Source: Geobacteraceae bacterium (lineage in GTDB: Bacteria; Desulfobacterota; Desulfuromonadia; Geobacterales; Geobacteraceae). From it: a stretch of DNA of 47,312 nt. Both the position numbers and the translations under genes were made by a program. The notes beneath the pieces are model-generated. The model saw only the letters and a list, made by a program, of their open reading frames with translations, did not search any database and was not told the origin of the DNA. The stretch spans positions 1 to 47,312 of the forward strand of contig WSYB01000032.1 of the NCBI GenBank assembly GCA_009773645.1, read 5' to 3'. Positions 22,428 to 43,496 of the stretch are shown here, piece after piece (positions within the stretch are counted from its first letter, which is position 1; the number at the start of each line of letters is the position of its first letter).

Positions 22428-23422
22428 AGCCAGCAGTGGGGATCGGGACTGTTGATATCGCCGGTAAGGGCCAGTGCCCTTGCGCTGCAGCCGCCGAGGC
22501 ATTCCGAGTAATCGCTGCATCGGACGCACTTCCCGGTCGGTTGTTTGTTCCGCATCTTCTCCAGCACAGGGGATTTGAGCCAGATCTCCTTCAGATCGTC
22601 CCGCGTGATGTTGCCGATGACGATGGGAATGAAACCGCAGGGGGTGACATCGCCGTTGGATTTTATATTGAGGGAGAGCTTGCCGCACACGCTCCCCTTG
22701 ACCGGTTTGTTGTCACTGCTTAATCCCAGGGAAGCGATGATCGGGTCATCCAGCGAGAGGTCAAGCCCCTTGACCCCCTGTTTGGCCTGTAGCGCCTTAC
22801 GGTAAAACTCCCGCCATTCTTCGGGTGTCAGGTCCAGTTCGTCCTTATGGGCAAGCCCCAGTCCCGAGCATTTGAAGTTATGGAAATTCAGCTGGTCAAC
22901 CTTGTGCCGGAGGGCAAACTCGATGAGCGCATCGATCTCGGTATGGTTGAACCTGCATATAACCGTTGATATGGAGGTCCTGATGCCGGCCTCCTGCAGG
23001 TGCAAAAGGGCGCTTACGGCCCTTTTGTGGCTCCCCTTGACGCCCCTGAAGCGGTCGTGCACGCCGGGCAGATGGCTGTCAATACTGATCCCTACCTTGG
23101 AAAAACCGGCGCCTTTAAGCCTGACCGCCATTTCCCCGTCGATCAGGTAGCCGTTGCTGTTCATGGAAACCCGCAGGCCCTTGTTGGCTGCAAATTCCGC
23201 TATGGCAAGGAGGTCGGCGCGCAGAAGGGGTTCCCCCCCGCCGAAGTTGACGGAAAAGACCCCTGCATTCGCCACCTTTTCAATGCAGCTGCAAAGTGTG
23301 CGGGCGTCAAGTTCCTCTGCCGAATCATTCCTGCTGTAGCAGTGCCGGCAGGTGAAGTTGCAGCTGTTATTGATCGCCCAGTTGATGGTAAGCGGCGCCT
23401 TGAGGAAAAGTTCATTCTTCAT
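22424..23422 (-). CDS. Radical SAM/SPASM peptide-modifying enzyme (GeoRSP-type)
   Basis: 332-residue radical SAM enzyme. Cys21, Cys25 and Cys28 (SCNFTCRHCYS) bind the SAM [4Fe-4S] cluster; FGGGEPLLR is the SAM-binding GGE motif. The C-terminus has a complete SPASM domain: CGKLSLNIKSNGDVTPC, CVRCSDYSECLGGC and a final Cys (PHC), enough for two auxiliary clusters. Such enzymes install cross-links or other changes in ribosomally made peptides. It overlaps the PqqD-like gene upstream by 11 bp and the SPASM-only gene downstream by 4 bp, a tight cassette. The name GeoRSP is recalled from protein-family work; the natural substrate is not established to my knowledge. Confidence 0.9.
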   Translation of the reverse strand: MKNELFLKAPLTINWAINNSCNFTCRHCYSRNDSAEELDARTLCSCIEKVANAGVFSVNFGGGEPLLRADLLAIAEFAANKGLRVSMNSNGYLIDGEMAVRLKGAGFSKVGISIDSHLPGVHDRFRGVKGSHKRAVSALLHLQEAGIRTSISTVICRFNHTEIDALIEFALRHKVDQLNFHNFKCSGLGLAHKDELDLTPEEWREFYRKALQAKQGVKGLDLSLDDPIIASLGLSSDNKPVKGSVCGKLSLNIKSNGDVTPCGFIPIVIGNITRDDLKEIWLKSPVLEKMRNKQPTGKCVRCSDYSECLGGCSARALALTGDINSPDPHCWL

Positions 23423-23726
23423 AACGGATAAATCCCTTTTCGGCGAGCTCGGACAAAAAACTCATCACATCCGCCTTCAATACGTCCGCTTCCACGTCGA
23501 ACTGAAGAATCAACTCAGAAAGAATTTCGTCCACACTCCTGCCGTCGCAGAGCTTCCAGACTTCCGTACCGAGGATATTGAGCGACACCATCATCCCGTC
23601 GGAAAAAAGAAGCGACGTCCCCATATCTTCAACGTCAGCCCCTTGCTCCAGCCCTTCATAGGCCTGCGCCTTGGCTTCGTCTTCCTCGCGCCACATGACG
23701 TCGGGATTGCGCTGAATCCTTTTCAT
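23412..23726 (-). CDS. PqqD-like peptide chaperone (RiPP recognition element)
   Basis: 104-residue protein with the PqqD-type winged fold: PDVMWREEDE, LFSDGMMVSLNILGTEVWKLCDG, SVDEILSELILQFDVEADVLKADVMSFLSELAEKGFI (read in parts). In RiPP pathways such domains bind the leader of the precursor and hand it to the radical SAM enzyme. GAAGGGAG precedes ATG 23726. Overlap with the radical SAM gene shows co-translation. This is the third part of the GeoRSP-type cassette. Confidence 0.87.
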   Translation of the reverse strand: MKRIQRNPDVMWREEDEAKAQAYEGLEQGADVEDMGTSLLFSDGMMVSLNILGTEVWKLCDGRSVDEILSELILQFDVEADVLKADVMSFLSELAEKGFIRYEE

Positions 23727-24069: not shown

Positions 24070-24150
24070 ACTCTCCCTCCGTTTCTAATTTTTTATATCC
24101 GCATATTCGCACTAGCTTTAACCTTGTGCACTATCGCCCAGAGAACCACT

Positions 24151-26085
24151 CTAAGCCTTATGCACGAGTTTCAAGATTCTCCCGAGAATCTCCGATGCTC
24201 TATTGAAAAAGTGTGATGCGAGGGTCGCAGGCAGCTCTGCCTGGTGTTCAGCATACCCGGAGAAGAGAACCCCGTAGCGGGATGACAGCTTATTTACTGC
24301 CAGTGCGTCATCCGCCCCGGGCTGATGTTTCCCGGCCACGATCAGCATGCTCTTTCCGTCCCCGGTAAATCGTGAAATGGTGTTCAGTTCAACATCGGTT
24401 AACGGTCGCCTTGCGGCTGATTCTCCAAGAAAAATCCAGAGCTGGCTATGATCTCCGAGCAGCCGTCCGGAAATTTCAGGGGTTTCCCGTCTGTCCGTTA
24501 TCCTGAACTTGATTCCTTTCTGCGCCAGATCGGCAGAAATATACTTATCGAAAGATTTTTTATCGAGTCCGCCGTCGCGGAAGGTGTCATAGATGAGGAC
24601 ACTTCCCGTTGCCGGCGAATTATTGTTTTGTTCCAGCCATTCGGCAATGTTGCTGATATACTTGCGGTTGTCATACTTGGACGGGTCCAAAAACCGGTCG
24701 TTCCCGGAATCAAAAACAATTCCTCCCTGTCTCTCCAGGTCATTGGTATAAGTTGCAATTATACTTTTGCCGGCCGGGTCCATTACGATCCGCACGTTCT
24801 GATTCTGTTTCTGAATTACGGATGATTTCCCCCCCGATATGGACCTGACCCCCTTTAATAGAGGATTGCCCGTGTCTACGCCCGGCACGAAGACAAGAAA
24901 TTGAAAAGAGTAGGCGATCAGCATCGTTCCCGCGAGACAAACGAACATATAGAGAAAGAAAACCCGTTTCTTGAAAATAGTCCAGAATAGCATCATCGTG
25001 GGTATCGCCGTCACCGGGCCGCCTATCATGAACGCCAGCCCTGCTCCGCCGTCAAGCGTGCCGTTTAGTGAGCTTTTTATATGGTAGATGATGCTCGAAG
25101 CACTAATCTGATGGAGAAATATGGGGACTGACCCGAGGGTAACCCACATGATGTTCAGCGGATCTTTTTGCCCGAAGAACCGGTAAATCCATTCGTACGG
25201 CATGTACCTCTCGACAATGGCCCCGATTACAACGCCGACAACGATATATTTCCCCACCAGCCATAGCATTTCCGATGACTTGGCAAGGAATATGAGGAAT
25301 TTATTGTTCGTTCTGACAGCCACCCGGTTGCCGAACTTCTCCTTGCAGTTACACCTCAGGCGCTCATCCGGGTAATCTTCATCGTGGAAATCTCCCCTGG
25401 TGATGGCTCCTTCGATAAATATGCTATCCGTCTGAAAACCTCTTTTCCTGAGAAAATGGGTGACAAGTCCGGCAAAAATGCCCATGAATAATGCGGCAAC
25501 GGTCCTGATCACCGTCCATTCCGGTCCCAGGTCGTTCAGGGTCAGGAGATACGTTGAGGGGCTCATCAAAGGGGAAGTCACCAGGAGGGACATGACCGGA
25601 GCAAGGGGGAGGCCGGCAAACAAGAGGCTCACGGCTGTGGTCAGAGTGCCGCAGGCGCATAACGGCGTAATTATCCCCACGAACGAGGCAATGAAAACAC
25701 TTATGACCCCATATCTTTTCAGGGATGCTTGCAGTTTAACGGCAACCTTGTAAGTGCGCAAATATCCGGCCAGGAGTATCCCGACAATAAAATAGGGAAA
25801 CACATCCCAGAGCTCAGCAAGGACGCCGTGCTTATCGAAAATCAGATCCCATATTTCACTGCCCACGAGAAGGGGGAACGATCTCGGCAAAGAATCGGAT
25901 TTTGCCAGATGACCACTTGGCCCGTAAACCCATACATGCCAGATGATCAGCGCGAGAGAAGCCAGTATCATGAAAAGGAGCGTCTTATTCGCTGCATTCG
26001 AGGACGCTCCGTGGACCTGGCACTCTTCCGATCTCTTTTTATTAAAGAACATTAGTGGCATTTTGCCATTCTCCCGATGCCTCAT
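24151..26085 (-). CDS. ArsP/DUF318-type permease with a C-terminal extra domain
   Basis: 644-residue protein. Residues about 30-400 form a multi-helix permease of the ArsP/DUF318 family, with the typical GIITPLCACGTLTTAVSLL (two cysteines in the membrane) and a mirrored second half (SVPIFLHQISASSI, GGPVTAIPTMM). A loop near residue 245 has a CNCKE motif. After residue about 400 follows a soluble domain of roughly 230 residues (NSPATGSVLIYDTF, LWIFLGESAARRPLTDVELNTISRF, KSMLIVAGKHQ) that looks like the GATase/DUF4350-type fold. Family members export organoarsenicals or other thiol-reactive compounds; the substrate here is unknown. A later ATG (26061) has a better ribosome-binding site. Confidence 0.78.
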   Translation of the reverse strand: MRHRENGKMPLMFFNKKRSEECQVHGASSNAANKTLLFMILASLALIIWHVWVYGPSGHLAKSDSLPRSFPLLVGSEIWDLIFDKHGVLAELWDVFPYFIVGILLAGYLRTYKVAVKLQASLKRYGVISVFIASFVGIITPLCACGTLTTAVSLLFAGLPLAPVMSLLVTSPLMSPSTYLLTLNDLGPEWTVIRTVAALFMGIFAGLVTHFLRKRGFQTDSIFIEGAITRGDFHDEDYPDERLRCNCKEKFGNRVAVRTNNKFLIFLAKSSEMLWLVGKYIVVGVVIGAIVERYMPYEWIYRFFGQKDPLNIMWVTLGSVPIFLHQISASSIIYHIKSSLNGTLDGGAGLAFMIGGPVTAIPTMMLFWTIFKKRVFFLYMFVCLAGTMLIAYSFQFLVFVPGVDTGNPLLKGVRSISGGKSSVIQKQNQNVRIVMDPAGKSIIATYTNDLERQGGIVFDSGNDRFLDPSKYDNRKYISNIAEWLEQNNNSPATGSVLIYDTFRDGGLDKKSFDKYISADLAQKGIKFRITDRRETPEISGRLLGDHSQLWIFLGESAARRPLTDVELNTISRFTGDGKSMLIVAGKHQPGADDALAVNKLSSRYGVLFSGYAEHQAELPATLASHFFNRASEILGRILKLVHKA

Positions 26086-26108: not shown

Positions 26109-27035
26109 TCATCTCCATGGGCCCTTCCTGGGAAATCGTCTGATAAATGACAAAACAGCCCCGGCGCCCATCACGGCAAACCCGGCAAAGACATAGGGCC
26201 TCCCAGGGTCTCTCACGATCTGAATGCCGGCAAAAGCTGCACCGTTAGGGTCTCTGTCAACCTGTGTATTATAGAAATAAAGCCCTTCACACTGAAAAGG
26301 GTTGTTCACCTCTGCGGTCCCCTCCGCAATTCTCCCCGAGCCATTGGAAAGCATCAGGTCGACCCACAACCTCTTCAGAGAAGGATTCTGAAAGGCTACC
26401 AGTTTGAATTCATGGGGGAAATCCGCCGGGAGATTATTGACTCCCGAGGTATCGAAGGAACCAATGAAACGGCCTTGATCATAAACGCTGAGCTTCAGTT
26501 TTTCCGATGGGAATTCGAGCGCGTCAACCTTGATCCTGTACTTATTCAGCTCAAAGCTTTCCCCCGTCTTCAGGGTGAAAAGACCCGTCTTTTCCTTGCC
26601 CGTGAGGACACCCACTTTTACCGGTATCGGATAGTACTCCCTGTTTATCCGCTTCACGGTCAGTTCCATGCCCAGAGGGAGGTCCCTTTCCCGATCCCAT
26701 CGGTAGACCTGGTCCACCACCCCCCCCTCATAGACATTCACCGTCGCCACAAATCCAAAAGAAGTTACGAAACAACCGATAAGGGTCAAAAGCACCCCGC
26801 CATGGAGAATCAGGACGGGTGTTGAAAGCGTCTTTAGCCTTCGAACGGTGCAGAGGATCAGATTCAGTCCTAAAAAGCCAAGAAGGGTCAGAAATGGCGG
26901 GCTTGAATAAATCTCTCTCTTTTCCAAAAAGGTTCCGGGAATGGCAAGCAGAGAAATCGCCAGAAAAAGCGCAACCGCCAATTCTGTCGAACCAAGAAAT
27001 TTATATGTCTTTTTAATCCCCTCATTCACAAGCAA
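26109..27035 (-). CDS. ResB-like cytochrome c biogenesis protein
   Basis: 308-residue membrane protein resembling ResB/Ccs1, which works with ResA/ResC-type partners in system II cytochrome c assembly. Early hydrophobic segments (AVALFLAISLLAIPGTFLE, FLTLLGFLGLNLILCTVRR, LILHGGVLLTLIGCFVTS) and a last one near the C-terminus (AGFAVMGAGAVLSFI) enclose a periplasmic domain. The histidine in LHGGV fits a haem-binding role in this family. A role in maturing the multiheme cytochrome of this locus is inference. The start may be TTG 27035 or GTG 27029. Confidence 0.78.
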   Translation of the reverse strand: MLVNEGIKKTYKFLGSTELAVALFLAISLLAIPGTFLEKREIYSSPPFLTLLGFLGLNLILCTVRRLKTLSTPVLILHGGVLLTLIGCFVTSFGFVATVNVYEGGVVDQVYRWDRERDLPLGMELTVKRINREYYPIPVKVGVLTGKEKTGLFTLKTGESFELNKYRIKVDALEFPSEKLKLSVYDQGRFIGSFDTSGVNNLPADFPHEFKLVAFQNPSLKRLWVDLMLSNGSGRIAEGTAEVNNPFQCEGLYFYNTQVDRDPNGAAFAGIQIVRDPGRPYVFAGFAVMGAGAVLSFIRRFPRKGPWR

Positions 27036-27049
27036 ATCAACCTATTCCC

Positions 27050-27610
27050 CTAGATAAGCTTCTTTGCCTTTAAGTAATCTTTTGCAACTTTTTTCGGCTT
27101 TTCATCTGATTTCACAGATTTGAACAGTTTTGCATAGGTTTCATTATTTAAGGCAGCGGTAAGCTTACTTATCAGTTTCGGAAGGGCTGGGTAATTCGTC
27201 AGGGTTTCAACCGTCAGTACGGGAGCGTAATGCTGAGCTCCTCCAAATGGTTCAAGCCAGACAAGGTTTAAATTTTTTCTATATTCGCTCTTTATTAACT
27301 CATAGGCCGTTTTCATATTGGTCTCTTTGGGTTTGCCCAATACCTCCATTGCACGATCCGTGTTTTCTATCAGCATGCCGATTTGCCCCTGCTTCACAGC
27401 ATTATAGAGCTCCTTTGAATCCTTATAGAATAGTATTTTCACATTTGATCCGGTTCTCTCGTTTATCAGAATGGAAACCATTTCTGCCAATAACTGCTCA
27501 TTTGGCGAACTAGGGATACCGATATAGAGTATCCTGCCAACACAGGCATCCGACATCGGGACAAAAACAAGAAACGCAGCAACGATGAGTAAATAATGGA
27601 TTCTTTTCAT
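27050..27610 (-). CDS. OpuAC-like substrate-binding protein
   Basis: 186-residue exported protein, similar to the glycine-betaine-type (OpuAC) ligand-binding domain but short. The signal region MKRIHYLLIVAAFLVFVPMS ends at DAC, which could be an imperfect lipobox. The mature part shows ILYIGIPSSPNEQLLAEMVSILINERTG and a central SKELYNAVKQGQIGMLIENTDRAMEV (read in parts). No ABC permease or ATPase gene is adjacent, so it is probably not part of a classic transporter. It sits 14 bp before the ResB-like gene. Confidence 0.72.
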   Translation of the reverse strand: MKRIHYLLIVAAFLVFVPMSDACVGRILYIGIPSSPNEQLLAEMVSILINERTGSNVKILFYKDSKELYNAVKQGQIGMLIENTDRAMEVLGKPKETNMKTAYELIKSEYRKNLNLVWLEPFGGAQHYAPVLTVETLTNYPALPKLISKLTAALNNETYAKLFKSVKSDEKPKKVAKDYLKAKKLI

Positions 27611-27667: not shown

Positions 27668-28372
27668 TCATTGTAACGTTAGCTCAATATCCAAGGCAAT
27701 ATCTAATTTGTCGGCTTCCGGAATAAGTTCCTTGGAAACGAGAAGTTTCGGCTCTGGAGGGAATGTCGAGGCACCCCCCACAAAATATTTTTCCCCTGGG
27801 GGGAGATAAAGCGTGTAAGTCCCGTCTTCATCGGTCCATGCCGACATGAAATCAGGGAGCTGCACTACTTCTTTATTTCTATGGGCAAATACATAAGCGT
27901 TCTGGACGGGAACACCATTAGTATCGACAACCCGTCCTCTCAACGTTAAGCAATCATCTCGCATTGTCCGTTTCTTTTTGCCAACTTCCCTTATATCCGC
28001 CACAACAAAATCATTCTCAAGCACTTGGTCCGTAGTCAGCTCTATCTCCACCGGTTCACCCGAGTGTTTGTCTCCCGGCATGAGCGGCCCATATCTTTCA
28101 TCTTTCCTCACGCGTGCCACCGCCCAATATTTCCCCGTCGGCAAGGCAATTAAGACACGGCCGTCCTTATCCGATTTTGGTGATATGAAATCCGCGGGCC
28201 TCTTAGTATTTGCACTATCATAAATAAATATTTCGGCCCCATCTACCGGCTTCCCTTCAATATCCACGACGTTGCCCTTCAGACTGGAAGTTTCCACCGC
28301 ACAAACGCTGGATACAGAAACCAGCGCACCCCATGCAGCAACCAGTAAAATATGCAAAGTTAACCGTGTCAT
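27668..28372 (-). CDS. Exported protein with two carboxypeptidase-regulatory-like domains
   Basis: 234-residue secreted protein. After a signal peptide (LHILLVAAWGALVSVSSVCA) it has two Ig-like carboxypeptidase-regulatory domains: LKGNVVDIEGKPVDGAEIFIYD with DGRVLIALPTGKYWAVARV, and LRGRVVDTNGVPVQNAYVFAHR with DGTYTLYLPPGEKYFVGG (read in parts). These are non-catalytic beta-sandwich modules that typically occur on cell-surface proteins. The start overlaps the stop of the beta-helix gene (ATGA), so they are coupled. Related modules occur in the genes at 31000-31842 and 31884-33878. Confidence 0.85.
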   Translation of the reverse strand: MTRLTLHILLVAAWGALVSVSSVCAVETSSLKGNVVDIEGKPVDGAEIFIYDSANTKRPADFISPKSDKDGRVLIALPTGKYWAVARVRKDERYGPLMPGDKHSGEPVEIELTTDQVLENDFVVADIREVGKKKRTMRDDCLTLRGRVVDTNGVPVQNAYVFAHRNKEVVQLPDFMSAWTDEDGTYTLYLPPGEKYFVGGASTFPPEPKLLVSKELIPEADKLDIALDIELTLQ

Positions 28373-30870
28373 TTTATCTCTCTCAGATCCGTCTTGAGAG
28401 GCCCTTTGAAGTACGGCTCATAAAAAACCTTTCCTATGCCGGGCTCCTGCCGCCCATCGAAAATGGTATCACCCGGATCACCATATCCCCACCAGTTTTC
28501 CCTCGCATTGACATCCTCATCATTAAAATCGCCAACCCGGACGTTGTAATCTATATTCGCAAATATATTATTCCGCGTGATATTAAGTCCTCCCCCTTTT
28601 TCCCGGACAAAAATACCCGTTTCATTCTTCGTTATGACATTCTCTGTAATAACGGCATTACCCCGGTATGCCCTGATGCCGATGTAATTATCCTCAAATA
28701 TGGAGTGCTTAACCTCAACGGGACCGCTCCTGAATCTCATGCCGCCATAGTTTTTCGTGAAATGGCTGTCCGTAACGGAAAGATTTGTGAAATGACTATG
28801 GATACCCCAAGTGGCATACTCGAAAACACAATGGGCGATCACACTGCCGGCGGCATATTCCAGCAGGACCTCATCCCAATCCGAAGCGCCATTTTTTTGC
28901 ATGGAGGTGAAGAGAATTTTCCCGTCATTCCTTCCCGCTGCAATTATTTTGCCTTTTATTGCAAGACCGGCGCCCTGTGAAAATTGCACCGTTGTATTCG
29001 GGGCAACTTTTAAGACTGCGCCGTGTAGAACGGTGATGGTATTTTTTGCGGTAATGACGCCACGCCAGGTTACGTCAGTGGGTACGGTCTGCACCGGCCA
29101 TACAAAGGGGAAGGGATTTACGCTTGCATTTTCATAAACAACCTTCCCTTTTACCGGATCGTCAGCCTTATCGTAAATGACCCTGTCCGTATCATCGCCA
29201 CCCCACCAGTTGGATGGTGCGGAAACGCCATTTTTCCCGTCCAGATCAATGGCATAAAGACCGTTTTTGATAAAGTTGTTCCCTGTGATCACCCCATCAA
29301 AGGATACTATTCCTATGCCTCGTTCTCCGTTGTCGGAGATTAGATTCCCTTTTATAATCGCCCTTGCATCCTGGATATTCAGGCCGTTAAAGCCGTTTCC
29401 GGCCACAGCGTTTCCGTTTATCTCGATATTGTCGATGTTTTTCATTGAGAAGCCGACTTCCAGGTTGTTGGTAATACTGTTATGGCTATAATCACCGTAA
29501 TAATTATCCGCCACCATGAGTCCGTACCGGTTGCCGTCAATCAGGTTCTCTTGCAGCGTTACAGCGCCTTCCCTTACCCTTACCCCCTCTTTCCGGTTCC
29601 CCAGAATCTTATTTCCCCGAGCCACGAGATTGGCTCGCAGGAAATTAGCCCCCAGGTAATTATTGCAGATGTAATTATCGGAAAACGTGATATCGGAATC
29701 CCTTCCCTGAACACCGCTCTTATTCCCGTACAGATAGTTCCCCCGTATCTCGGCCAGCGATTCCTGAAACTGAATGCCACGGTAATTGTTTCTTAAAATC
29801 GATTTATGAACTATCACATTGGAAAAATGAAAATGAAGCCCGCGGTAGGCGTGCTCAATCCGGCAATACTCTATGAGGTTCTGCGTCCCGGCACTGTTCA
29901 TGATGTTAATGGCGTCCCAGTCCCCCATTCTTTTCTGTTTCTCGGCTGATCTGAAAACGATGGGATGTTCCGTTGTCCCTTTGGCAATAAGGCGTCCTTG
30001 GACCAAAAGGCCATTCTCGCCGATACCGTCACCGTTGGTGTCTTTTTTCCAAAACTCGACGATTGTGCCCGGCATTATAACCAGCCTGCTCCCTTCCGGC
30101 ACCCTGATTATCCCGCTGACCTCTATCCGCCCTTGCCAGACTGTATCCCCCAGCAATACTTCATCTTTATACTGCCGGCTCACGGCAATTTCCTCTTTGC
30201 CGTCCAGCTTTATCTCAGGCCTGTAATCATTGGCAACGACGGAGTATTTATCCTTTTTTCGGTTCCCTTTGACCAGTGCTGTTCCGGCCGCCACTTTTGC
30301 GCCCTGAAGTGTAAAGATGCCGTAATCGTTTTCCGTAATCCGGGAACCTTTGACCGTAACAACAGCCTTCTCCCCTTGAGCCACAATGCCGTAGCGATTC
30401 TCCTGTAAGACCGACCCTTCCACCAGAAGATCCCCATCGAGAACATACACACCTGTTTCTGCGTTTTTCACTCGACACGCCTGCATCACCGCAGTTCCAT
30501 TGTCAACAATTAGCCCCGCCCAGACTCCCGGCTTCATCTCTTCGCCGGAAAACTCCACCGGCGCCTTTTCTGTCCCTTCCACCCTGAGCGTCCCTCTGAT
30601 GGTTATCTCGGTCAAAGGGGAGACATATTCAGGATCTGTCTTTGTACTTTCCGCGGACACAACCTTAACCGTCGTGCCGGCTCTGACGGTGAGGGTGATC
30701 CCTTCAGGAACCAGAATATCTTCGGTAACCTTGATTTCACCTTGCCAGACGGTATCCGTCACTATGACACCGGCAAGGGCAAGAGAAGGAAAGAACATAC
30801 AGAACACAAAAAGTGCCCCGTAGCTTAATTTGTTGGCTAATATTTTATTCATATGCACGATTGATCGCAT
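28369..30870 (-). CDS. Secreted right-handed parallel beta-helix protein
   Basis: 833-residue exported protein with a signal peptide in the first 35 residues (SYGALFVFCMFFPSLALA). Most of the chain consists of NosD/pectate-lyase-like beta-helix rungs (for example ENRYGIVAQGEKAVVTVKGS, NLIDGNRYGLMVADNYYGDY). Three long modules each begin with D-(T/V)-(V/T)-W-(Q/R)-G followed by 'VPEG/LHGA...PGT/PNT' and end in a NWWGxxD block. The same module occurs once in the gene at 31884-33878. TGAGGACAA precedes ATG 30870. It is likely a surface or periplasmic scaffold; no catalytic site is evident. Confidence 0.85.
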   Translation of the reverse strand: MRSIVHMNKILANKLSYGALFVFCMFFPSLALAGVIVTDTVWQGEIKVTEDILVPEGITLTVRAGTTVKVVSAESTKTDPEYVSPLTEITIRGTLRVEGTEKAPVEFSGEEMKPGVWAGLIVDNGTAVMQACRVKNAETGVYVLDGDLLVEGSVLQENRYGIVAQGEKAVVTVKGSRITENDYGIFTLQGAKVAAGTALVKGNRKKDKYSVVANDYRPEIKLDGKEEIAVSRQYKDEVLLGDTVWQGRIEVSGIIRVPEGSRLVIMPGTIVEFWKKDTNGDGIGENGLLVQGRLIAKGTTEHPIVFRSAEKQKRMGDWDAINIMNSAGTQNLIEYCRIEHAYRGLHFHFSNVIVHKSILRNNYRGIQFQESLAEIRGNYLYGNKSGVQGRDSDITFSDNYICNNYLGANFLRANLVARGNKILGNRKEGVRVREGAVTLQENLIDGNRYGLMVADNYYGDYSHNSITNNLEVGFSMKNIDNIEINGNAVAGNGFNGLNIQDARAIIKGNLISDNGERGIGIVSFDGVITGNNFIKNGLYAIDLDGKNGVSAPSNWWGGDDTDRVIYDKADDPVKGKVVYENASVNPFPFVWPVQTVPTDVTWRGVITAKNTITVLHGAVLKVAPNTTVQFSQGAGLAIKGKIIAAGRNDGKILFTSMQKNGASDWDEVLLEYAAGSVIAHCVFEYATWGIHSHFTNLSVTDSHFTKNYGGMRFRSGPVEVKHSIFEDNYIGIRAYRGNAVITENVITKNETGIFVREKGGGLNITRNNIFANIDYNVRVGDFNDEDVNARENWWGYGDPGDTIFDGRQEPGIGKVFYEPYFKGPLKTDLREIK

Positions 30871-30940: not shown

Positions 30941-31003
30941 TCAACAGGGATGCACCGCGGCACTTCCCACGATCTTAGGACGAGTATATTTACTCTTTTT
31001 CAT
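30941..31003 (-). CDS. 20-residue peptide gene 1, candidate RiPP precursor
   Basis: Encodes MKKSKYTRPKIVGSAAVHPC. The ATG overlaps the TGA of the preceding gene (ATGA) and an excellent ribosome-binding site (AAAGGAGGTGAGG) lies inside the end of that gene. A second copy at 34292-34354 has the same C-terminal VGSAAVHPC and a 14-base identical initiation region. In these nine shared codons the two genes differ at five third positions and no amino acid changes, which argues for selection on the peptide. The basic N-terminus could be a minimal leader; the C-terminal His-Pro-Cys could be the modified core. The PqqD/radical-SAM cassette lies 7 kb downstream on the same strand. Function is inference. 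Confidence 0.85.
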   Translation of the reverse strand: MKKSKYTRPKIVGSAAVHPC

Positions 31004-31842
31004 CGGTTTACCTCACCTCCTTTCTTGCCAAAAGGTTGCAATTCCCGCGTATTAGGACCCCTGCCAGGAAACTTTACCCCTTTTAGATTTATCCCCTTGA
31101 CAATCTCTCCTGTCTTTACTCTGACTTCAACGGGCGCCACAGGCGCCTGTTCACCGTAACTATCTACAATTTCACCTGAGAGGGGGGGACCGCCGCCGTA
31201 CACATTCCTGGTCTTTAGATAATAATTGCCGCCCGCATGAACTCTCAGAATATACTTACCGTCTTTAGCCGTTTTATCTGAGACAAAGAGTGGTTTCCCG
31301 ACGATCGTCGGCGTTACAAAGGCAAAGACCAGCACGCCTTCCACAGGCTTTCCATCCGCATCCTGAACATAACCTTCTATAGCGGTAATCCCCTCTTTGA
31401 CCACCGATCTTTTGTAGGGAACGGCCTCTGCGATAACCCCTACGTCAAGCTTCTCTCCCTTTTTTATGACATATTCCCTAGGGGTGCCTTTTTCATCCCG
31501 GCTGATAAACAAATAATCCCCTTCTATCGGCGGACCGATCAGCTTTTTTGCCTCTCTTTTTATTGCGCCAAGGCAATACTTTCCTTCGAGGAGCTCTACG
31601 GAAAATCTTCCCTTATCATCCGTCTCAGCAACAAAGTCTGGGACTCTCCAGTATTTATCACTGGAAGGAGGTGGGCCTGTCGCTATATTATACAAAAAAA
31701 CCATCCCGCCACTCATCGGCCCACCTCCCTTAATCATCAGTTGGCCTGAAACGGTGCCCACCTTCACATCTTCAGCATGGCTCATGCCAAACACGGCCAG
31801 GATACATAAAGAAACAACTGCAATGGAAACTAATCTTCTCAT
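31000..31842 (-). CDS. Exported carboxypeptidase-regulatory-like surface protein
   Basis: 280-residue secreted protein with a signal peptide (SIAVVSLCILAVFGMSHA) and two carboxypeptidase-regulatory-like beta-sandwich modules: VSGQLMIKGGGPMSGGMVFL ... DDKGRFSVELLEGKYCLGAI and IEGYVQDADGKPVEGVLVFA ... DGKYILRVHAGGNYYLKTR. The C-terminal 60 residues carry VRVKTGEIVKGINLKGVKF and a Lys/Gly-rich tail. AGGGGAGG precedes ATG 31842. Its last codons contain the ribosome-binding site of the following 20-residue peptide gene, so peptide production is coupled to this protein. Confidence 0.85.
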   Translation of the reverse strand: MRRLVSIAVVSLCILAVFGMSHAEDVKVGTVSGQLMIKGGGPMSGGMVFLYNIATGPPPSSDKYWRVPDFVAETDDKGRFSVELLEGKYCLGAIKREAKKLIGPPIEGDYLFISRDEKGTPREYVIKKGEKLDVGVIAEAVPYKRSVVKEGITAIEGYVQDADGKPVEGVLVFAFVTPTIVGKPLFVSDKTAKDGKYILRVHAGGNYYLKTRNVYGGGPPLSGEIVDSYGEQAPVAPVEVRVKTGEIVKGINLKGVKFPGRGPNTRELQPFGKKGGEVNR

Positions 31843-31883
31843 GCGTAACCTCCCCTTGGGCGTAATATACCATGACGCATACC

Positions 31884-33878
31884 TTAGTCTCTCACACCCA
31901 CACCTTGTACCACGGAGGTGAGAAACGGAAAGAATACAACCCGGCTGAGTTCATTGTCATCTTCGTTATCGTAAATAGTTTTTTCAATTTTTTCCTTTTT
32001 ATCTTCACCCCACCAGTTATTCGATATATTTATATCCTGATTCTGTCCATCACCCAATGAAACATTATACTTGAAATTCTCAAAGATATTGTTGTTGAAA
32101 AAGTGGGGTGGCTCAACACTCTTGTCCAATTTCATAAAGTCAACCGCATTTATATGCTGCCTGACAAACAATACACCGACATCATTATTTCGAACAACGT
32201 TGTTTTTGACGGAAATATTTCCTTCAAAACGCATAAATCTTATGCCGACCTTATTATTTACAAAATTATTGTGCTCCACCAAAAGGTTTGCGGTGTTAAA
32301 ATGGAGACCTCTGTTGTTATTGGTAAAAACAGAATCCGATATTTTAACGTTTGAATAGTGAACCATTACCCCGGAATATGCCCACTCAAATTGGCAGTAT
32401 TCGATAACATTATCGGTTTCTGCGGCAATAAACTGAACATATGACCAGTCATTTATCTGGGGCCTCTCCTCGGCGGATGTAAAAATAATCCTCTTTTCCC
32501 CGGTCCCTCTGGCCACCATCCGTCCTTCTACAAGTATTTCCCCATCGCCAAAGCCGTTATCGTCTTGATCGATCCGGCTGAATTTTATGACGGTTCCAGG
32601 CTTGATGGTAAGTGTCGCCCCTCGCTTGACCGAAACTACTCCTTTTATCAGGATATTCCCTTGCCACACCGTATCTCTGTCTACGACCCGGTCCGCCACA
32701 ATTGTCACGCCCTTGGCGGCAGCCTTGTCCGTGGTTGTTTCTTTTTTCTCGGGCTTGTCCGGTGGAAGCCGAACTGCCTCTAACGATTCGGCCATTACTT
32801 TCCCGACGGTAATATTAACGTTATCTATCAGCACTCCAGCCTTATTATATGAGACGACATGTCTGGAATTCCCCTGATAAAGCCCATAGATTTCCCCCTT
32901 GTGGGGGCCGTCGCCCAGGGTATCTCTGGCCACAACATTGTAGTCGCCCGCCTTGTCCAAGTGAATGAAATAATTGCCGTTCTTGTCGGTTTCTCCTGAT
33001 TTTTCCGTGCCATGGCTCAGATGGTACATCATAAAAACCGGTGATTCGCTTTTATAGGCAAGCACCGTAATACCGGCAACAGGTTTTCCTCCCGCATCGG
33101 TGACTTTGCCTTGAATTCCGGTCTTTAACCTGGAGGCTGCACTCTCAAGCGTCGCGTAATCGTTGGTTTTTATCGAAGGAGTGTCAACAAAAGCGTTTCT
33201 ATCATCCTTTGGATAACATGGCACTTCAATCTGGACTGTCTTATCAGATTTGACTTCCACCGGATTCTGGGGGTAATAACAGAATAAATCCCCCTTTTTG
33301 AGCGGCTTGTTTCCCTTGCCGCTTTCTATTTTTTTGGCAATCACCACATATTTGCCGGGAGGAACGGCAAGATTGAATCTCCCATCGCCACCAACAGATT
33401 CGGTCCTCAGCCCAAGACCTCTAAATGGTCTGCTCTCCGGAGTATAAATCGCGACATAAGCGCCTTTCACCGGCTGGCCCTTATACGTTACAATTCCGTT
33501 TAAAGAGGGCACGCCCTCCTCGTAAACTGGCGGCAGCTTTATCTCATTGGCTATAAGGGTAACCCATATATCTTCTTTTTTCACCTTAATGGGATTTTTA
33601 CCATGATAAGCGGAATATTCCTTCCCATCCTTGATCCCTCTGGCGGTAAAGTAATATTCCCCTTCCGGCAGTTGAGCCTTGTACAAGCCTTTATTGTCGG
33701 TAGCCTCTGATATATACGCAGGAGCACCGGATTGAATATCCTCATAACTCTTATATGCGTACACCTTTGCCCCATTGAGGGGGCCGGATTCGGTAAAGAC
33801 CCTTCCTTCGATGTTTATATCCGCAGCTGCAGCCAACGCCGGATACATCAGTAAAAAAAGCGCGAGGATTCTCATCAT
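31884..33878 (-). CDS. Exported protein with carboxypeptidase-regulatory and beta-helix domains
   Basis: 664-residue secreted protein. Signal peptide MMRILALFLLMYPALAAAAD. Residues about 20-370 hold three carboxypeptidase-regulatory-like modules (EGRVFTESGPLNGAKVYAYK, NGIVTYKGQPVKGAYVAIYT, QGKVTDAGGKPVAGITVLAY). From about residue 400 a beta-helix module follows, starting DTVWQGNILIKGVVSVKRGA and containing NTANLLVEHNNFVNN rungs and a NNWWGEDKK end block. It thus joins in one chain the two domain types that are separate in the genes at 27668-31842. AAAGG precedes ATG 33878. Surface location is likely; ligand unknown. Confidence 0.85.
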   Translation of the reverse strand: MMRILALFLLMYPALAAAADINIEGRVFTESGPLNGAKVYAYKSYEDIQSGAPAYISEATDNKGLYKAQLPEGEYYFTARGIKDGKEYSAYHGKNPIKVKKEDIWVTLIANEIKLPPVYEEGVPSLNGIVTYKGQPVKGAYVAIYTPESRPFRGLGLRTESVGGDGRFNLAVPPGKYVVIAKKIESGKGNKPLKKGDLFCYYPQNPVEVKSDKTVQIEVPCYPKDDRNAFVDTPSIKTNDYATLESAASRLKTGIQGKVTDAGGKPVAGITVLAYKSESPVFMMYHLSHGTEKSGETDKNGNYFIHLDKAGDYNVVARDTLGDGPHKGEIYGLYQGNSRHVVSYNKAGVLIDNVNITVGKVMAESLEAVRLPPDKPEKKETTTDKAAAKGVTIVADRVVDRDTVWQGNILIKGVVSVKRGATLTIKPGTVIKFSRIDQDDNGFGDGEILVEGRMVARGTGEKRIIFTSAEERPQINDWSYVQFIAAETDNVIEYCQFEWAYSGVMVHYSNVKISDSVFTNNNRGLHFNTANLLVEHNNFVNNKVGIRFMRFEGNISVKNNVVRNNDVGVLFVRQHINAVDFMKLDKSVEPPHFFNNNIFENFKYNVSLGDGQNQDINISNNWWGEDKKEKIEKTIYDNEDDNELSRVVFFPFLTSVVQGVGVRD

Positions 33879-34291
33879 ATAGACCTTTGACCTCTTTTAG
33901 AGCTAATTGGCCGGAGAAACAATACCAAATTAACAACCTATCGGTAATCGGGTAAGAGTCAAAAAAAATCGGAACTACCGCCACTAAAAGGTAACATCAT
34001 GACCCTGACCATATAGACCGCCAGGCGCTACGGAGTTGCTCTTCTCCTCGCACCAAACTCTTGTCCGGGCTTTGATTTCAACGTCTCAACCTTTATGTGG
34101 TTATAGTTCCGTAGCAATATACAGGCCAAAACCAGCGCATCTGTGTGTGACCGATTAAGGCTATTATCTAAATTATGCTGATCTATCCTCCTATTTTAAT
34201 AGCATAAAAATAATGTTCGAACAATTTAAAACGACACAATTTAAAACACAGAGAATTACAGATGCAATCAATTAAATTCACACATTGATGT
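33879..34291 (-). other. 413-bp non-coding region upstream of the 664-residue protein
   Basis: No gene supported. On the minus strand it contains a sigma-54-like promoter (34113-34129), a hairpin (GGTGC-GA-GGAG...CTCC-GTA-GCGCC, about 34024-34052), an eight-T run (33961-33968) and, farther upstream, two tandem 15-base units (34221-34235 and 34236-34250, ACAATTTAAAACGAC / ACAATTTAAAACACA) that could be binding sites. Confidence 0.55.
34113..34129 (-). promoter_or_regulatory. Sigma-54 (-24/-12) promoter-like site
   Basis: Minus strand TTGGCCTGTATATTGCT: GG (34127-34126) and GC (34115-34114) are 10 bases apart, as required, with TTGGC and TTGCT matching the consensus. Predicted start near 34102, about 220 bases before the 664-residue protein. 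It would start a transcript covering peptide 1 and possibly the downstream maturation cassette. Confidence 0.55.
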
Positions 34292-34354
34292 TCAGCATGG
34301 ATGCACAGCAGCACTCCCCACAACCTTTGGCGGTATATATCTTTTTCTCATCAT
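34292..34354 (-). CDS. 20-residue peptide gene 2, candidate RiPP precursor
   Basis: Encodes MMRKRYIPPKVVGSAAVHPC. GGAGG lies six bases before the first ATG, within CAAGAAAGGAGGTG, which is identical to the initiation region of peptide gene 1. The stop of the giant propeller/FN3 gene is 42 bp upstream, so it is probably on the same transcript. Compared with peptide 1 the last nine residues are identical, the Lys/Arg-Tyr-x-x-Pro-Lys part is conservatively changed, and the length is the same. No signal peptide. As for peptide 1, modification by the PqqD/radical SAM/SPASM cassette is proposed but not shown. Confidence 0.85.
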   Translation of the reverse strand: MMRKRYIPPKVVGSAAVHPC

Positions 34355-34395: not shown

Positions 34396-37300
34396 TCAGC
34401 GGCAAACATTCGCCCCGGTCTCGTATGGCTTCGCAAATACCGAAGCTTCGCTGAAAGGAGACTGCAGCGCTCCCTTGAGCGCGCGCACCCGATAACGGTA
34501 TTTACAGTTCGGGTCGATGGCGACGTTGTCGGTATAGGTCAAGGTTGCACCATCGACGATCTTGACAGTCGCCCAGTATCCATCCCGCGCCTGCCGCTGG
34601 ATCTCGAAATAGTCCGGATTGTCGCAAGGATCGGGCGAGCAGGCGACAGGGGTCCAATCGAGCCGAATCATGAAGCCGCCATTCAGGGGGATGGCGGTCA
34701 GATTCTGATTGGGGATACTCAGGGTGGTCGCGCTTTTTTCGGTGCTTTCCGGGGATTCGGTACCGTTCGCCGCGTGCACATGGTAATAGTACGCCGTATT
34801 CTCCGTGAGCCCCGCATCCTGATGGCAGTAAACTGCCGGTGTAGCTGTCGGACAACTGACGGTCGGGTAGGGTTCGCCGCAGTATGAAGTGCTGTATGTC
34901 ACGCTCGGGTTGGCGATCTGGCCGTATGTCCCCCCGCTTCCCGTTTTGCGGTCCACCTTGTAGCTGGTGGCGCCGTATGATAACGGCCAGCATATATCGA
35001 TCCGATCTTCGGAGATGGCAGTTGCGGTAATCGAGGGTATTGCCGGAGTGGTGGTGGCCGACGCCTCCGGGCTGGTAGCCGAATAGCCGCCGGAAGAGTT
35101 GGCGCTGACCCGATAGTAGTACAGCGTGCCGGAGCTAAGGCCGGTGTTGTTGTTGAAAGTTGTCACATCCGTGCCCACCGTGCCGACGGAACCCCAGGAA
35201 CCGGATGCTCCGGTCTTGCGCTCGATGTTGTAGCCGCTGTTGCCAAAGACATTCGGCGACCACGTTACGGTGATGTTCGAAGCGGTTATCCCGCTCAAAG
35301 TAGGCTGAACAGGCGCAACCGGCTTTGTCGACTGGGACACGGAACTGCTTATAGCGGAATCCGGTGTCAGCGGTGGTCCGGAAGGTCCGGTGGCCACAAC
35401 CCGATAGCAGTAAAAGGTTCCGGGGGTGAGGCCGGCATGGTTGTAGGATGTTGTATTGATCGCCACCGTGATGGGTCCGTTCCAGTTCCCTGCGGTGCAG
35501 TCCGCCCCTGAGCGTTGTTTCCAGTAGAGCTTGTAGCCGTTATCCCCGTAAACATTACTCCACGTCGGCGTCAGCTGGGTCGTGGTTGTGGATGCCGCCG
35601 TGGGAGCGTACATGGTCGGCACCGGCGGAGTGATGGTATCCCACTGCTCTTCACTCCAGGCCGTATAGTCCGTCGCATTGTATTTAGCCCTCACCCGGAA
35701 CCGGTACGTATAGCCGGCTGTCAACCCCGCTGTCGACGTGGTGTTGATTATCCGGGTGGTGCCGTCAACCGGCTGGGCCTGAGTAAAGGTCGTGCAGGCG
35801 CCTACTGTACGAACTGAGGGAGTTTGGTGATCAGTCGACGGACACCTTTCAACTTCATAACCATTGGTGGCGGCGTCAATCTTGTTCCAGGATACCTCAA
35901 GCGGATTGGTGGTCAGAACCGGGGCTCTGTCGGAGCGGCGGAAGATATGCCCGACTTCCGGCGCGAAGTAGGAGAAATTGATGGTGGTCGATGTCGGCGG
36001 TGTGTTCAGCTGGAAGTTGTTGATCTTCGTCCTTTGGCTTGTCCCGGCCGTATGAGGCATTCTTCCCATCTGGTATATCCAGTACAGGTTCGGTGTATAC
36101 GTGTCACCGGACAAGAGATCGAGCTGTCTTTTCAACTCCCACGCTCCCCCGGTGGGTGCGGTGTAGAACATCACGTTGCTGCCGGATTTCGCCAGTCTCA
36201 TTCTCCCTGAAGTTTCGCCGGACGGGATGATGAGTTGTTCCGTTACCCATGTTATCGGTTCGTAGATGCTTACCCAGTATGCTTCCACCGCCTGCGCAGC
36301 CGGCCGCGGATCGAATATGGTGTATGAGTCGTTGCTGGCGATCTGGTACGGGAACGGAGGATCCACGGTGATGGTGTTGGCGGTGTTGCCCGTGATTGTC
36401 CTGAAGAGACCGATATTGGGTCCGCTGGACATGTACAGGTGGAAACCCTGCCATTGGTTTGTGCCCCAGTTCTTCGGCGGCAGGGTAGTGCCCGTGTTAT
36501 CGGATGAATCGACGAGCATGGCGTTGGTGTTGTTTTTACCGTCCTGGGTGCTGCCGTTGGTGCCGGCATTGCCCGCTATGACATTGATCCTGTAGGCATC
36601 GACATTGAATATCTTGTAGGAGTCGCCGCTGCCGATGGGAGAGGTGAATCCGGTGCCTGCCACGGTGACGCTGGTGGCGTCACTGCTGGTGATTTTCAGG
36701 ATCTGTCCCGCATTGGCTCCACTGGTCATATTCAGGTAGTAGGTCTGCCACTGATTGGCGCTCCAGCTCTTCGTGGTATCGACGAGTTTGGTGTTGGTGC
36801 TCCCGCTTGCGGCGGCAGTTCCCGTCACCTGGGCCGGATCGTTGGGGAATGGGCTGTCCAGGGTTATGCTGTTGGCCGTATTGGCGGTGATCTTGCGAAC
36901 CAGCTGGTTGTTGGGGCCGGAGATCATCTGCAGGTAGTAGTCTTTCCACTGGTCGACGGCCCAGCTCTTCCAGGGGGTTGTGGAGCCGGCCATGGTCCTC
37001 GTGTCGTACAGGGTGTCCAGGGTGGCCGACACAGCGGTGCTCCTGCCGTTGTCCTGCGGGACCAGACGGCCGCGGTGAATGTAGGTGTTGTAGGATATGC
37101 CAATGGGTGACTGAAAGTCGTATCTCATCGAGGCATACGTATTGGTCAGGTAGAGATAGGGGAGCGAGGTGTCCGGTGGTATCAGGCCGCTCATGATCGT
37201 GTAGTCGATCTGGGTGTCGAAATTACCCGTGAGGGGCGTGAGATCTTTCAGGGCCAGGAGCTCGTAGTTGTAGTTGTTGGCGTAGCCGGGGGCGACAGAG

Positions 37301-40300
37301 TAGAACTCGGCCTCCGGGTTGGTCAGCGTCAGTTTTGCCGTACCGTTATTCGGTAAACCGGGAGCTACGGTCTTTGTTACTGTACCGCTGCCTTGCGTGG
37401 CAGCCGTGGCGCCGATCATATAGGTGTCGGTCGGGCTGACGGGGCTGGCGAATGGTGTCGCCACGGTAAGCGTGGTGGCGGTCTTGCCGGTAATGGGTCG
37501 CGACTGGCCGTTGTTGCTCCCCGAGGTCATCATCAGGTAGTACCCCTGGGTCCAGTCGGAGAGCCAGGTGTTCGCCGTATCCACAAGGTCGGTGGTGCTG
37601 CTGCCGGGGCTCCCGACGGCGGTGCCGAAATAGGAGGCGATCTGGGCGTTGGGCGAGATGAGATAGGTGTCGCCGGGGAGGATGGCACTGTCAAAGGCGG
37701 GCGATACGGTAACCGAAGTGGGGGTGTTGCCGGTTATCTTGCGTACCTTGCCTGCGTTGTCGCGTGAGGTCATCATCAGGTAGTACCCTGTATAATTGGT
37801 TGCCCCCCACCAGCTTGCCGTATCCACCAGTTGGGTAGCGCTGGAGCCGCTCCCCACGGCTGTCCCGAAATAGGAGGCCACCTTGGCAGGCGGCGCGATC
37901 AGGTAGGTGTCGCCCACGACGATTGGGGACGGGAAGGCATCGACAGTGAGCGCTGTGGCTGTTTTACCCGTGATCCTGCGCGCGTGGCCGTTGTTGCTGC
38001 CGGAAGTCATCATCACGTAGTACCCCTGGGTCCAGTCGGTTCCCCAGGTGTTTGCGCTATCCACGAGCTGGGTGGTGCTGGAGCCGCTCCCCGCCGCCGT
38101 GCCGAAGTAGGAGGCGATCCGGTAGGTTTCCCCGGTGTTGTTCAGTGAGGAGAATGGCGTTGACGTATAGATGTACTGACTGTTATTACCGCGGATCGTC
38201 CTTTCCTGCCCGATCTTCGCGGCATCGCCGCTTGTGATGATCTTGATTTTAAACCCGTTCCACTCGTGGGTTCCCCAGTTTTTGTCCGCATCGTAGAGGC
38301 TGTCGTTGGGGTTGGCACCATCGTACCAGGTCGCCTTTCCGTATGCCGTCTGGAGAACCACGTAGCTGTCGCCGCTATTGATGGTCTCGGTCGTAAAGGC
38401 CGGGCTTGCATAAATGGCGCTGTTGACGCTGCCGGCGATATTTTTGGTGTACGTGTTTGCCCCGGAGGTGATCACCACCGGTTGATTGATCCAGTAGTCG
38501 CCGATAGGCCAGTATTTCGACGCATCCTCGATAACGGTATATGAGGATTCATACTGGGTTTGAGACACCGAAAGTGCAGGCGCATTGGGCGGGGTGGTCT
38601 TGCACTGCGGCGCGCTGTAGACGGGGGACGGGGGGGTCGGCTCGGTACTGTACGCCTTCACCTGGTAACAATACTGGGTGTTTAACGCGAGAGGGCTATG
38701 CACATAGGAGACGTTGTTTATCGGGTGCGCCGCCACAATCTCACTCCAGGGGCCGGTGCTTGTGGGTCCCGTTTCTATGGCATAGCTGGTTTCGCCCGGC
38801 AGCTGGTTCCATGAAAGGGTGAGCGATGTGGCGCTCGCCGGTGTTACAGTCAGGGTCGGGGCGGTGAGGTTCGTCCACGCATGCAGCACGTTGCCGGCAG
38901 CGGATGTATTGCCGGACACCGTGGCGACGATTCTGTACCGGTAATTGGTACCCGCCGCAAGGCCGGTTGCGGAATAAGGTGACGTCACATTGCTCGCTTT
39001 GGTCGTCCATCCGGCGTACGTGCCGTCTGCGCCTCTACAGGTGCTTGGATTACTGTCACTGTTATTGCAGGACGATTGCTCGACGTTATATCCCGTAGCT
39101 TCCGGTACCGTCGACCATACCAGATTGATCTGCCCGGATGCCCCGGTGGCGCTGCTCAGGGTGGGAGTAGGCAGTTTGGTCTTTGCGTTCTGCTCGCCGC
39201 TCCAGGCGGAATCTCCGGCGGCATTGGCGGCTTTGACGTGGAAGTAGTATGTCTTATTCGGCAGCAGGCCGGTAACGGTGCAGTTGAGGTTCAGGTTGAT
39301 CGGACAGCCGGAGGGGACATAGGTACCGCCCGTCCCTTCCTTGTATTCCAGGGTGTAGGAGGTTACATTCGCCCCGGGCACAACGGGGTTGGTCCAGGCC
39401 AGATACATCTGTGTATCGGTGATGGTAGTGGGAGCGCTCAGTGTCGGCACGGCCAGAGCCGCTGTGCCGCTCTGCTCGTTACTCCAGGCGGAATCTCCGC
39501 CGGTATTGGCGGCCTTGACCTGGAAGTTGTACGCATTCGGTGCCGTAAGGCCGGTAACGGTACAGGTGGTGCCGGCCATGTTGGTGCAGGCCGGGAAGTT
39601 GGCGTAGGCGCCGCCCGACACCTTGTATTGCAGCGTATAGGTGGCCGCACCGGTGACGGCGTTCCAACCCAGAACCATCTGGGTATTGGTGATACTGGTG
39701 GGTGCGTTCAATGTCGGAGCCACCGGTTTGGTTATGGCGCTCGGCTCGTTGCTCGGCAGAGAATATCCGGAGACGCTGTTGGTGCTGACCCGATAGGAGT
39801 AGGTGGTACCGGGTGTAAGTCCTTGATCTACATGGTAATTCTCGTTGGTTAATTTGGTGGGCAGATCTCCCCACGCCCCCGCGCCGATTTTGCGCTCAAC
39901 CTTGTACCCGGTGTTCCCCGTTACCTGATCCCAGTTAACGGTAATTTGACTGGTGGAGTCCACCGTCAGGGTGGTCAGGGTCGGTTTCGGGAGTCTGGTG
40001 GTGACGCACATTGGTGGCGTCTTCCGGGAAGGAAGGCTGCTGAAAATGGCGTTGATCCTGTAGCAATAGTTGGTACCGGCGGTCAGCCCCGTGTCAGGGT
40101 GGCTCGTGGCGCCGGCACCGGGCGTGGCTATCACGGTCCAGGTGCTGACGGGGGTTGCCGGTCCGGGGGTCCGTTCGATGATGAACGTGGCACTGGCGTT
40201 GTTATGTTGCCAGCTCAGGTCCACCTTGCTGTAATCTGCCTGGGAAGTCCCCGTGAACGGTGCGGGAACCAGGAGATAGCCGTTTGTCTGCTTAAGGACC

Positions 40301-43440: not shown

Positions 43441-43496
43441 GGAATTGCCTCCGATATTGTGCTTATTAGTATGTTCTCTGGCCTGGAGATATGCTT

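Follow-up and report, generated by a model that had tools for sequence, protein, structure and literature searches.

Two short genes and the GeoRSP cassette of the window

The window analysed here comprises 47,312 nucleotides of a Geobacteraceae bacterium (GenBank assembly GCA_009773645.1, contig WSYB01000032.1, positions 1 to 47,312). It carries two tiny open reading frames (ORFs) which end in the same residues and, 7-11 kb further along on the same strand, the contiguous cassette of the GeoRSP system, i.e., a PqqD family protein, a radical S-adenosylmethionine (SAM)/SPASM enzyme and a SPASM partner. The relationship between the short peptides and this cassette is the subject of this report. 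The five genes are, with bit scores and curated NCBIfam cut-offs:

21534..22427, minus strand: SPASM partner of GeoRSP (TIGR04304, 369 bits, cut-off 300), predicted radical-SAM-like fold without CxxxCxxC
22424..23422, minus strand: radical SAM/SPASM enzyme of GeoRSP (TIGR04303, 628 bits, cut-off 400)
23412..23726, minus strand: PqqD family protein of GeoRSP (TIGR04302, 170 bits, cut-off 100)
30941..31003, minus strand: peptide gene 1 (MKKSKYTRPKIVGSAAVHPC), its start overlapping the stop of the gene before
34292..34354, minus strand: peptide gene 2 (MMRKRYIPPKVVGSAAVHPC)

The original prediction had placed two peptide genes here without naming the strand. Re-translation recovered both ORFs, on the minus strand, and both are preceded by CAAGAAAGGAGGTG, as had been claimed. 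In the nine common codons V-G-S-A-A-V-H-P-C-stop a codon comparison reproduced the five synonymous differences (GGA/GGG, GCC/GCT, GCG/GCT, CCC/CCA, TGT/TGC) and the absence of non-synonymous ones. A degenerate core pattern matches twice in the window and not once in 100 dinucleotide shuffles; the core match between the two ORFs is not due to chance. The ATG of copy 1 shares bases with the stop of the preceding gene (ATGA). For copy 2 the second ATG may be the true start, as it is for the paralogue on contig C73.

Beyond the two in the window, the genome, G000 (4.74 Mb, 78 contigs), contains three more peptide copies, five in all. The core of the C73 copy is identical to those of the window, the C46 copy is MKKKYLPPRVVGCAVVHPC with the end GCAVVHPC, and the C60 copy has a GTG start, followed by RKAKYTRPRIVGSATVHPC, and ends in GSATVHPC.

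The CxxxCxxC motif is invariant in 18 of 18 aligned sequences of the radical SAM enzyme, and the solved structure which best matches its profile is SkfB, with PqqE among the nearest. In the SPASM partner the motif is found in none of 76 sequences (first 150 aligned residues), and at its seven SPASM-type positions 70-74 of the 76 retain Cys. The AlphaFold model of the partner has a mean predicted local distance difference test score (pLDDT) of 92.2, and its best matches among solved structures are SuiB, PqqE, a sactipeptide maturase (5why) and anSME. Since these are radical SAM/SPASM enzymes and CxxxCxxC is absent, the partner is, judged by model and alignment, a degenerate radical-SAM-like protein.

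A peptide family conserved at the protein level

The original prediction regarded VGSAAVHPC as the conserved core. This holds for the pair in the window, but the sequence which relatives have in common is Y-x-x-P-[KR]-[IV]-V-G-S-x-x-V-H-P-C-stop. The peptides are 16-21 residues long, and up to six genes occur per genome. The regular expressions used for collecting peptides impose Y/F/W/H, P and PC. The one used for the length count further demands H/Y in front of PC, a set length and the presence of a Shine-Dalgarno sequence. The invariance of these residues in such sets is therefore partly built in. The copy count and the residue counts for 58 genomes were obtained with hidden Markov models (HMMs). 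Among the 49 distinct peptides found in this way, Tyr -15, Pro -12, Pro -2 and Cys -1 are invariant, His -3 is present in 48, Val -4 in 47 and Gly -8 in 44. There is only one conserved Cys, and it is the last residue. The spacing from YxxP to the C-terminal Cys is fixed and the N-terminal extension is variable. YxxP is a characterised recognition motif of the RiPP recognition elements (RREs) of lasso peptides (PMC12710340, accessible text), RiPP standing for ribosomally synthesised and post-translationally modified peptide.

The nucleotide sequences tell the same. In 138 distinct peptide genes the conserved residues carry as much as 2 bits at codon positions 1 and 2. Of 15 third positions, 7 stay at or below 0.1 bit, and the highest belong mainly to two-fold codons (Tyr, His, Cys). 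The flanks average about 0 bits in the farthest 40 nucleotides upstream and 0.07 bits in 60 nucleotides downstream. Pairwise comparison of the VHPC codons yields 16,640 synonymous versus 1,312 non-synonymous differences, and 135 of 145 copies start with ATG. The selection on the peptide which the two window copies had suggested is borne out by this codon-phased conservation with mostly free third positions. To judge from the codon pattern, these short genes are under protein-level selection, as is expected of RiPP precursors. A selenocysteine end (...HP-TGA), sought in GeoRSP loci, gave a single match, which lies outside the peptide family.

Co-occurrence and adjacency of peptide and GeoRSP

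The original prediction had proposed a search for further copies with a conserved amino-acid core, and it withstood this search. An HMM (A2) built from the five G000 peptides only and applied at E<=0.01 detects the peptide 62 times, in 23 of 58 genomes, i.e., 57 copies in 22 other genomes when the five training copies are set aside. The two window peptides match no NCBIfam 20.0 model (E up to 10) and no Pfam model (E up to 0.1), and the family to which they belong has so far been overlooked.

The GeoRSP radical SAM enzyme also exceeds its cut-off in 23 of the 58 genomes. Enzyme and peptide are both present in 22, GeoRSP only in one (G009), the peptide only in another (G018, 78% complete), and 34 have neither. 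A draw of 297 genomes from the phylum was scored for the enzyme at E<=1e-60 (all such matches have E<=1.2e-113) and with the peptide HMM A3 at E<=0.01. The enzyme was found in 21 genomes and the peptide in 22; 20 have both, G229 has the enzyme only, G253 (81% complete) and G298 have the peptide only, and 274 have neither. Fisher's p is 9e-14 for the 58 and 8e-28 for the 297 genomes, uncorrected for kinship; these values are only a guide because related genomes are not independent and the two draws have genomes in common. Peptide and cassette clearly co-occur across genomes. The association with PqqD and radical SAM genes, for which the original prediction had asked, is seen both in the window and across genomes.

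A scan of named genomes with the radical SAM alignment yielded 247 relatives, the best 80 of which were used as named GeoRSP loci (several of these are the same contigs as loci of the numbered genomes). A peptide lies inside the fetched stretch in 31 of the 80, after a regular-expression match in L260, which is no family member, had been dropped. In 21 of the 80 loci the radical SAM match is followed by the start of the peptide at a distance of 42-177 bp, and the SPASM gene is also present in 19 of these 21. Thus, the peptide gene is clustered with a modifying enzyme, as is characteristic of RiPP precursors. For genomes with a peptide-free fetched stretch a copy elsewhere was predicted, and it was found in 27 of 29 (E<=2.5e-4). 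These 29, mostly Nitrospirota, were taken from 49 peptide-free loci, the remaining 20 (mostly Geobacteraceae) being left out. Three positive controls of the genome-wide search all gave the peptide.

The peptide family is present in genomes labelled Desulfobacterota and Nitrospirota. In the named scan the radical SAM genes occur in Desulfuromonadia/Desulfuromonadales and in many Nitrospirota. Single metagenome-assembled genomes (MAGs) with a GeoRSP-type enzyme are labelled Rokuibacteriota, Desantisbacteria and Portnoybacteria, and may be misbinned.

Several genomes speak against a strict pairing. The genome-wide search found no peptide in the genomes of L242 and L273. G009 and G229 possess GeoRSP and the cytochrome end motif described below, and the peptide was not found. 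Conversely, G018, G253 and G298 have the peptide and no radical SAM match over the threshold used. Variant peptides were seen neither after the motif-bearing genes of G009, G229, G043 and G020 nor in the cassettes of G009 and G229. The G009 locus (L126) has the cassette and motif-bearing proteins without a recognisable peptide. Its island also yielded neither an ArsP nor a cupin gene, so the GeoRSP system of G009 may be decaying.

Co-occurrence, adjacency to the radical SAM gene, the prediction borne out in 27 of 29 genomes, codon-phased conservation and the YxxP motif together argue that the two ORFs very probably encode precursor peptides, i.e., the missing substrate of the GeoRSP cassette at 21534-23726. 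The RiPP-like precursor supposed in the original prediction is, at the level of sequence comparison, well supported by the spread of the family, its protein-level conservation and its tracking of GeoRSP.

Giant secreted proteins and their end motifs

Around the peptide genes of the window lie genes for large or surface-associated proteins:

31000..31842, minus strand: CarboxypepD_reg protein, upstream of peptide gene 1
31884..33878, minus strand: CarboxypepD_reg/NosD-like protein, downstream of peptide gene 2
34396..43539, minus strand: giant fn3/beta-propeller protein (3047 aa) with a near-terminal Cys (...GANVCR), upstream of peptide gene 2
43497..47183, minus strand: multiheme cytochrome ending LWNNVTPW, followed in this order by the fn3 giant and peptide gene 2

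The original statement that each peptide gene follows one for a secreted surface protein is correct for the window copies; as a rule it does not stand, since this is one of several contexts. At 145 distinct peptide loci the same-strand upstream gene is a radical SAM gene in 27, a gene for a protein with at least three CX2-4CH motifs in 34 and another gene in 71 (one of these, L281, is also a radical SAM gene); in 10 there is none of at least 120 aa, and three are at a contig edge. The multiheme class reflects a crude CX2-4CH count, the Pfam scan having covered 10 upstream proteins. The 71 others include 11 frames of more than 2000 aa, assigned to fn3 by Pfam for the giant of the window and by similar ends only for the rest. 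Further upstream genes encode FG-GAP/ASPIC, Ig-type, rhodanese and CarboxypepD_reg proteins. In L211 and L121 the gene immediately before the peptide gene encodes an FG-GAP/ASPIC-UnbV protein.

A common end, C-H-x(about 20)-W-N-x-x-[TS]-x-W, recurs in many of the multiheme proteins. Of the 34 upstream ones, 20 terminate in W-[NM]-x(3-4)-W, and in 27 of 29 loci checked the stop follows the motif directly. An HMM of this end (A7), made from 23 of 26 end sequences (near-duplicates dropped) plus that of the window, matches at E<=0.005 in 19 of the 58 genomes, all GeoRSP-positive. Weaker matches occur in GeoRSP-negative genomes, i.e., G010 (0.008, a 51-aa frame), G007 (0.04), G033 (0.05) and G026 (0.08), and in the GeoRSP-positive G001 (0.00996) and G028 (0.02). 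At least 10 matches to the CxxxxCH/CxxCH domain TIGR01904 are found in each of 14 GeoRSP-negative genomes, among them G015 and G047, which belong to genera with GeoRSP-positive members. Because these 14 genomes are rich in TIGR01904, it is the end motif which GeoRSP tracks, not the cytochrome family as such.

In the phylum draw, where at most 27 candidates were scored per genome, the motif is found at E<=1e-3 in 12 genomes, i.e., 11 GeoRSP-positive ones (including G229) and the peptide-bearing G253, and in none of the 274 with neither. Six of these 274 have weak matches of 0.003-0.016 in frames of 24-81 aa. The fn3 end with its near-terminal Cys behaves alike: the HMM A8 matches at E<=1e-9 in 15 of the 58 genomes, all GeoRSP-positive, the best GeoRSP-negative match being 7.6e-6. 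Eighteen of 53 cytochrome matches and 10 of 27 tested fn3 matches lie at most 300 bp upstream of a peptide; in 9 and 2 more, respectively, the peptide is farther off and within 12 kb. The fn3 test covered 27 of 31 rows at E<=1e-9, and one of the four omitted, on C60 of G000, has a peptide just downstream.

Against a tight link of motif, peptide and GeoRSP stand the following points. No same-strand peptide exists within 12 kb downstream of 26 of the 53 cytochrome and 15 of the 27 fn3 matches, some of which are at contig ends. The cytochrome motif is absent at E<=1e-3 in 10 of the 21 GeoRSP genomes of the phylum draw, and it is internal in L350 (G043) and L354 (the sole match in G024). At E<=0.005 the GeoRSP-negative G091 and G292 would pass, with frames of 24 and 81 aa. 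Moreover, the end-motif HMMs were trained on GeoRSP-positive genomes, so a restriction to such genomes is favoured by design and diverged versions would be missed. What the cytochrome motif marks cannot be the only target because about half of the motif-bearing proteins have no adjoining peptide and 10 of 21 GeoRSP genomes have no motif.

Many peptide copies nevertheless follow cytochrome or fn3 genes whose strict end motifs track genomes with GeoRSP or peptide. The same logic revealed the mycofactocin-dependent enzymes, where client families were recognised by their absence where the system is absent (PMC3023750, accessible text). By this analogy, the motif-bearing multiheme cytochromes and fn3 giants can tentatively be put forward as candidate clients of the GeoRSP product. 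The end motifs (WNxxTxW; near-terminal Cys) are possible sorting or attachment signals.

The GeoRSP island and alternative readings

Between the cassette and peptide gene 1 lie six further genes, linked to GeoRSP at the stated number of the 80 named loci, many of which are cut by contig ends:

23749..24069, minus strand: cupin (39/80 loci)
24151..26085, minus strand: ArsP_1 permease (39/80 loci)
26109..27035, minus strand: ResB-like protein (44/80 loci)
27050..27610, minus strand: OpuAC-like binding protein (57/80 loci)
27668..28372, minus strand: CarboxypepD_reg protein (43/80 loci)
28369..30870, minus strand: NosD-like beta-helix protein (57/80 loci)

Other neighbours in the 80 loci are YedE-like (60), TPR (56) and PhnD-like (55) proteins and a NicO permease (9). 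A PhnD-like binding protein, a TPR protein and YedE form a recurrent trio (L130 10794-13634, L196 4281-6699; 55-60 of 80 loci). ArsP permease plus cupin (window 23749-26085) and NicO permease plus TPR plus a short NosD-like protein (L130 6203-8663) appear to swap at one island position. In L110 and L117 rhodanese-type genes directly precede the peptide gene, followed by TPR and YedE. This gene content suggests that the GeoRSP product acts in the vicinity of proteins which handle metal, sulfur or selenium.

Another use of the product has to be considered, in which the peptide is again the GeoRSP precursor and the product a metal- or chalcogen-binding small molecule which serves the island transporters (NosD-like, YedE, PhnD-like, ArsP, NicO) and not the cytochromes. 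The frequency of YedE-like genes agrees with it. So do L130 and L196, where the cassette is flanked by PhnD-like proteins and a putative selenium transporter of the YedE family (TIGR04112; 411 and 340 bits, cut-off 200). Two peptide copies, in G018 and G051, are situated between rhodanese-type and TPR-YedE genes, and H-P-C would be a plausible metal ligand. Yet many copies stand away from transporter genes, next to giants of the cytochrome or fn3 kind, whose end motifs co-occur with GeoRSP. We consider this use of the product a real possibility but less likely than not.

The ORFs might also be regulatory leader peptides or translational couplers for their neighbours instead of substrates, as their very small size, strong Shine-Dalgarno sequences, the long adjoining genes and the ATGA overlap of copy 1 would allow. 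The peptide gene, however, usually comes after the linked gene, in many contexts, is conserved at the amino-acid level and tracks the enzyme cassette, all of which makes such a role very unlikely. Least credible of all is a short repeat hitch-hiking with duplicated cytochrome/fn3 operons: the copies C67:34295 and C73:8753 do have upstream DNA and an upstream gene family in common, but the copies follow unrelated genes and the flanks of the 138 genes are almost unconserved where codon positions 1 and 2 are conserved.

Proposed pathway and its significance

For the peptide as GeoRSP precursor the following course can be envisaged. PqqD would bind the basic N-terminal Y-x-x-P leader and offer the C-terminus to the radical SAM enzyme, which would act together with the degenerate SPASM protein. 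Because the distance from YxxP to Cys is fixed, docking of YxxP would place the last residues at the active site. The V-H-P-C-COOH end would be the modified core. As Cys is always the last residue, the chemistry is most likely to take place there, possibly as a thioether, a decarboxylation or a cross-link to His or Val. With less support, giant extracellular proteins might use the product as a cofactor or as a covalent adduct. That an H-P-C-derived cofactor or adduct is built into the giant cytochromes and fn3 proteins, or anchors or wires them, with the end motifs as recognition sites, is a conjecture which we rate as rather unlikely.

What seems to be new, as far as comparative sequence analysis goes, is a RiPP pathway of the radical SAM/PqqD type whose precursor is very short and is encoded in several copies, scattered over operons for large secreted proteins. 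No description of GeoRSP, TIGR04303 or the peptide, and no paper joining VHPC and radical SAM, was found in the open-access literature searched; subscription papers and NCBIfam notes were outside the search. The accessible text of PMC4289311, PMC2825233 and PMC7470986 does not describe the peptide, and PMC5067487 contains none of the terms sought. An enzyme system known as named models, with its peptide target previously unidentified, now has a candidate substrate, which is unusually short and prone to be overlooked in gene calling. The link to cytochromes raises the testable question whether extracellular electron transfer depends on a ribosomal peptide cofactor. If true, extracellular electron transfer would have a maturation system that was not known before.

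Comparison with known systems

The mycofactocin system (MftA, MftB, MftC) contains in MftB a protein of the PqqD type. MftC oxidatively decarboxylates and cyclises the C-terminal Val-Tyr of a short precursor (PMC7491314, accessible text), and on this description the two systems share a short precursor, a separate chaperone, a radical SAM/SPASM enzyme and modified C-terminal residues. They differ in that the window peptides end in V-H-P-C, not V-Y, in the several dispersed precursor genes and in the candidate clients, which here are secreted cytochromes and not dehydrogenases. Identity with mycofactocin was rejected on the VHPC core and the score of the window's radical SAM enzyme (171 bits versus the MftC cut-off of 265).

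Biosynthesis of pyrroloquinoline quinone (PQQ; PqqA, PqqD, PqqE) has in common the PqqD domain and the proximity of PqqE to the radical SAM profile among solved structures. The core of PqqA is Glu/Tyr, which the window peptides lack. Identity was discarded with 121 bits against the PqqE cut-off of 381.

Lasso peptides are similar in the YxxP leader motif, which is read there by a PqqD-like RRE (PMC12710340, accessible text), and dissimilar in that the window peptides have a C-terminal Cys. A lasso system was rejected as neither an asparagine-synthetase-like cyclase nor a transglutaminase-like protease is among the 13 Pfam-scanned proteins (21.5-47.2 kb). Sactipeptides and ranthipeptides likewise depend on radical SAM/SPASM enzymes, and among solved structures SkfB matches the profile best; unlike them, the peptides described here possess one conserved Cys only, in the last position.

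The system at hand is GeoRSP itself (TIGR04302, TIGR04303, TIGR04304), as three window proteins exceed the curated cut-offs and the peptide tracks the system. For the window the NCBIfam models name the enzymes only, and none matches the peptide. The peptide, the wider island and the end motifs are additions to it.

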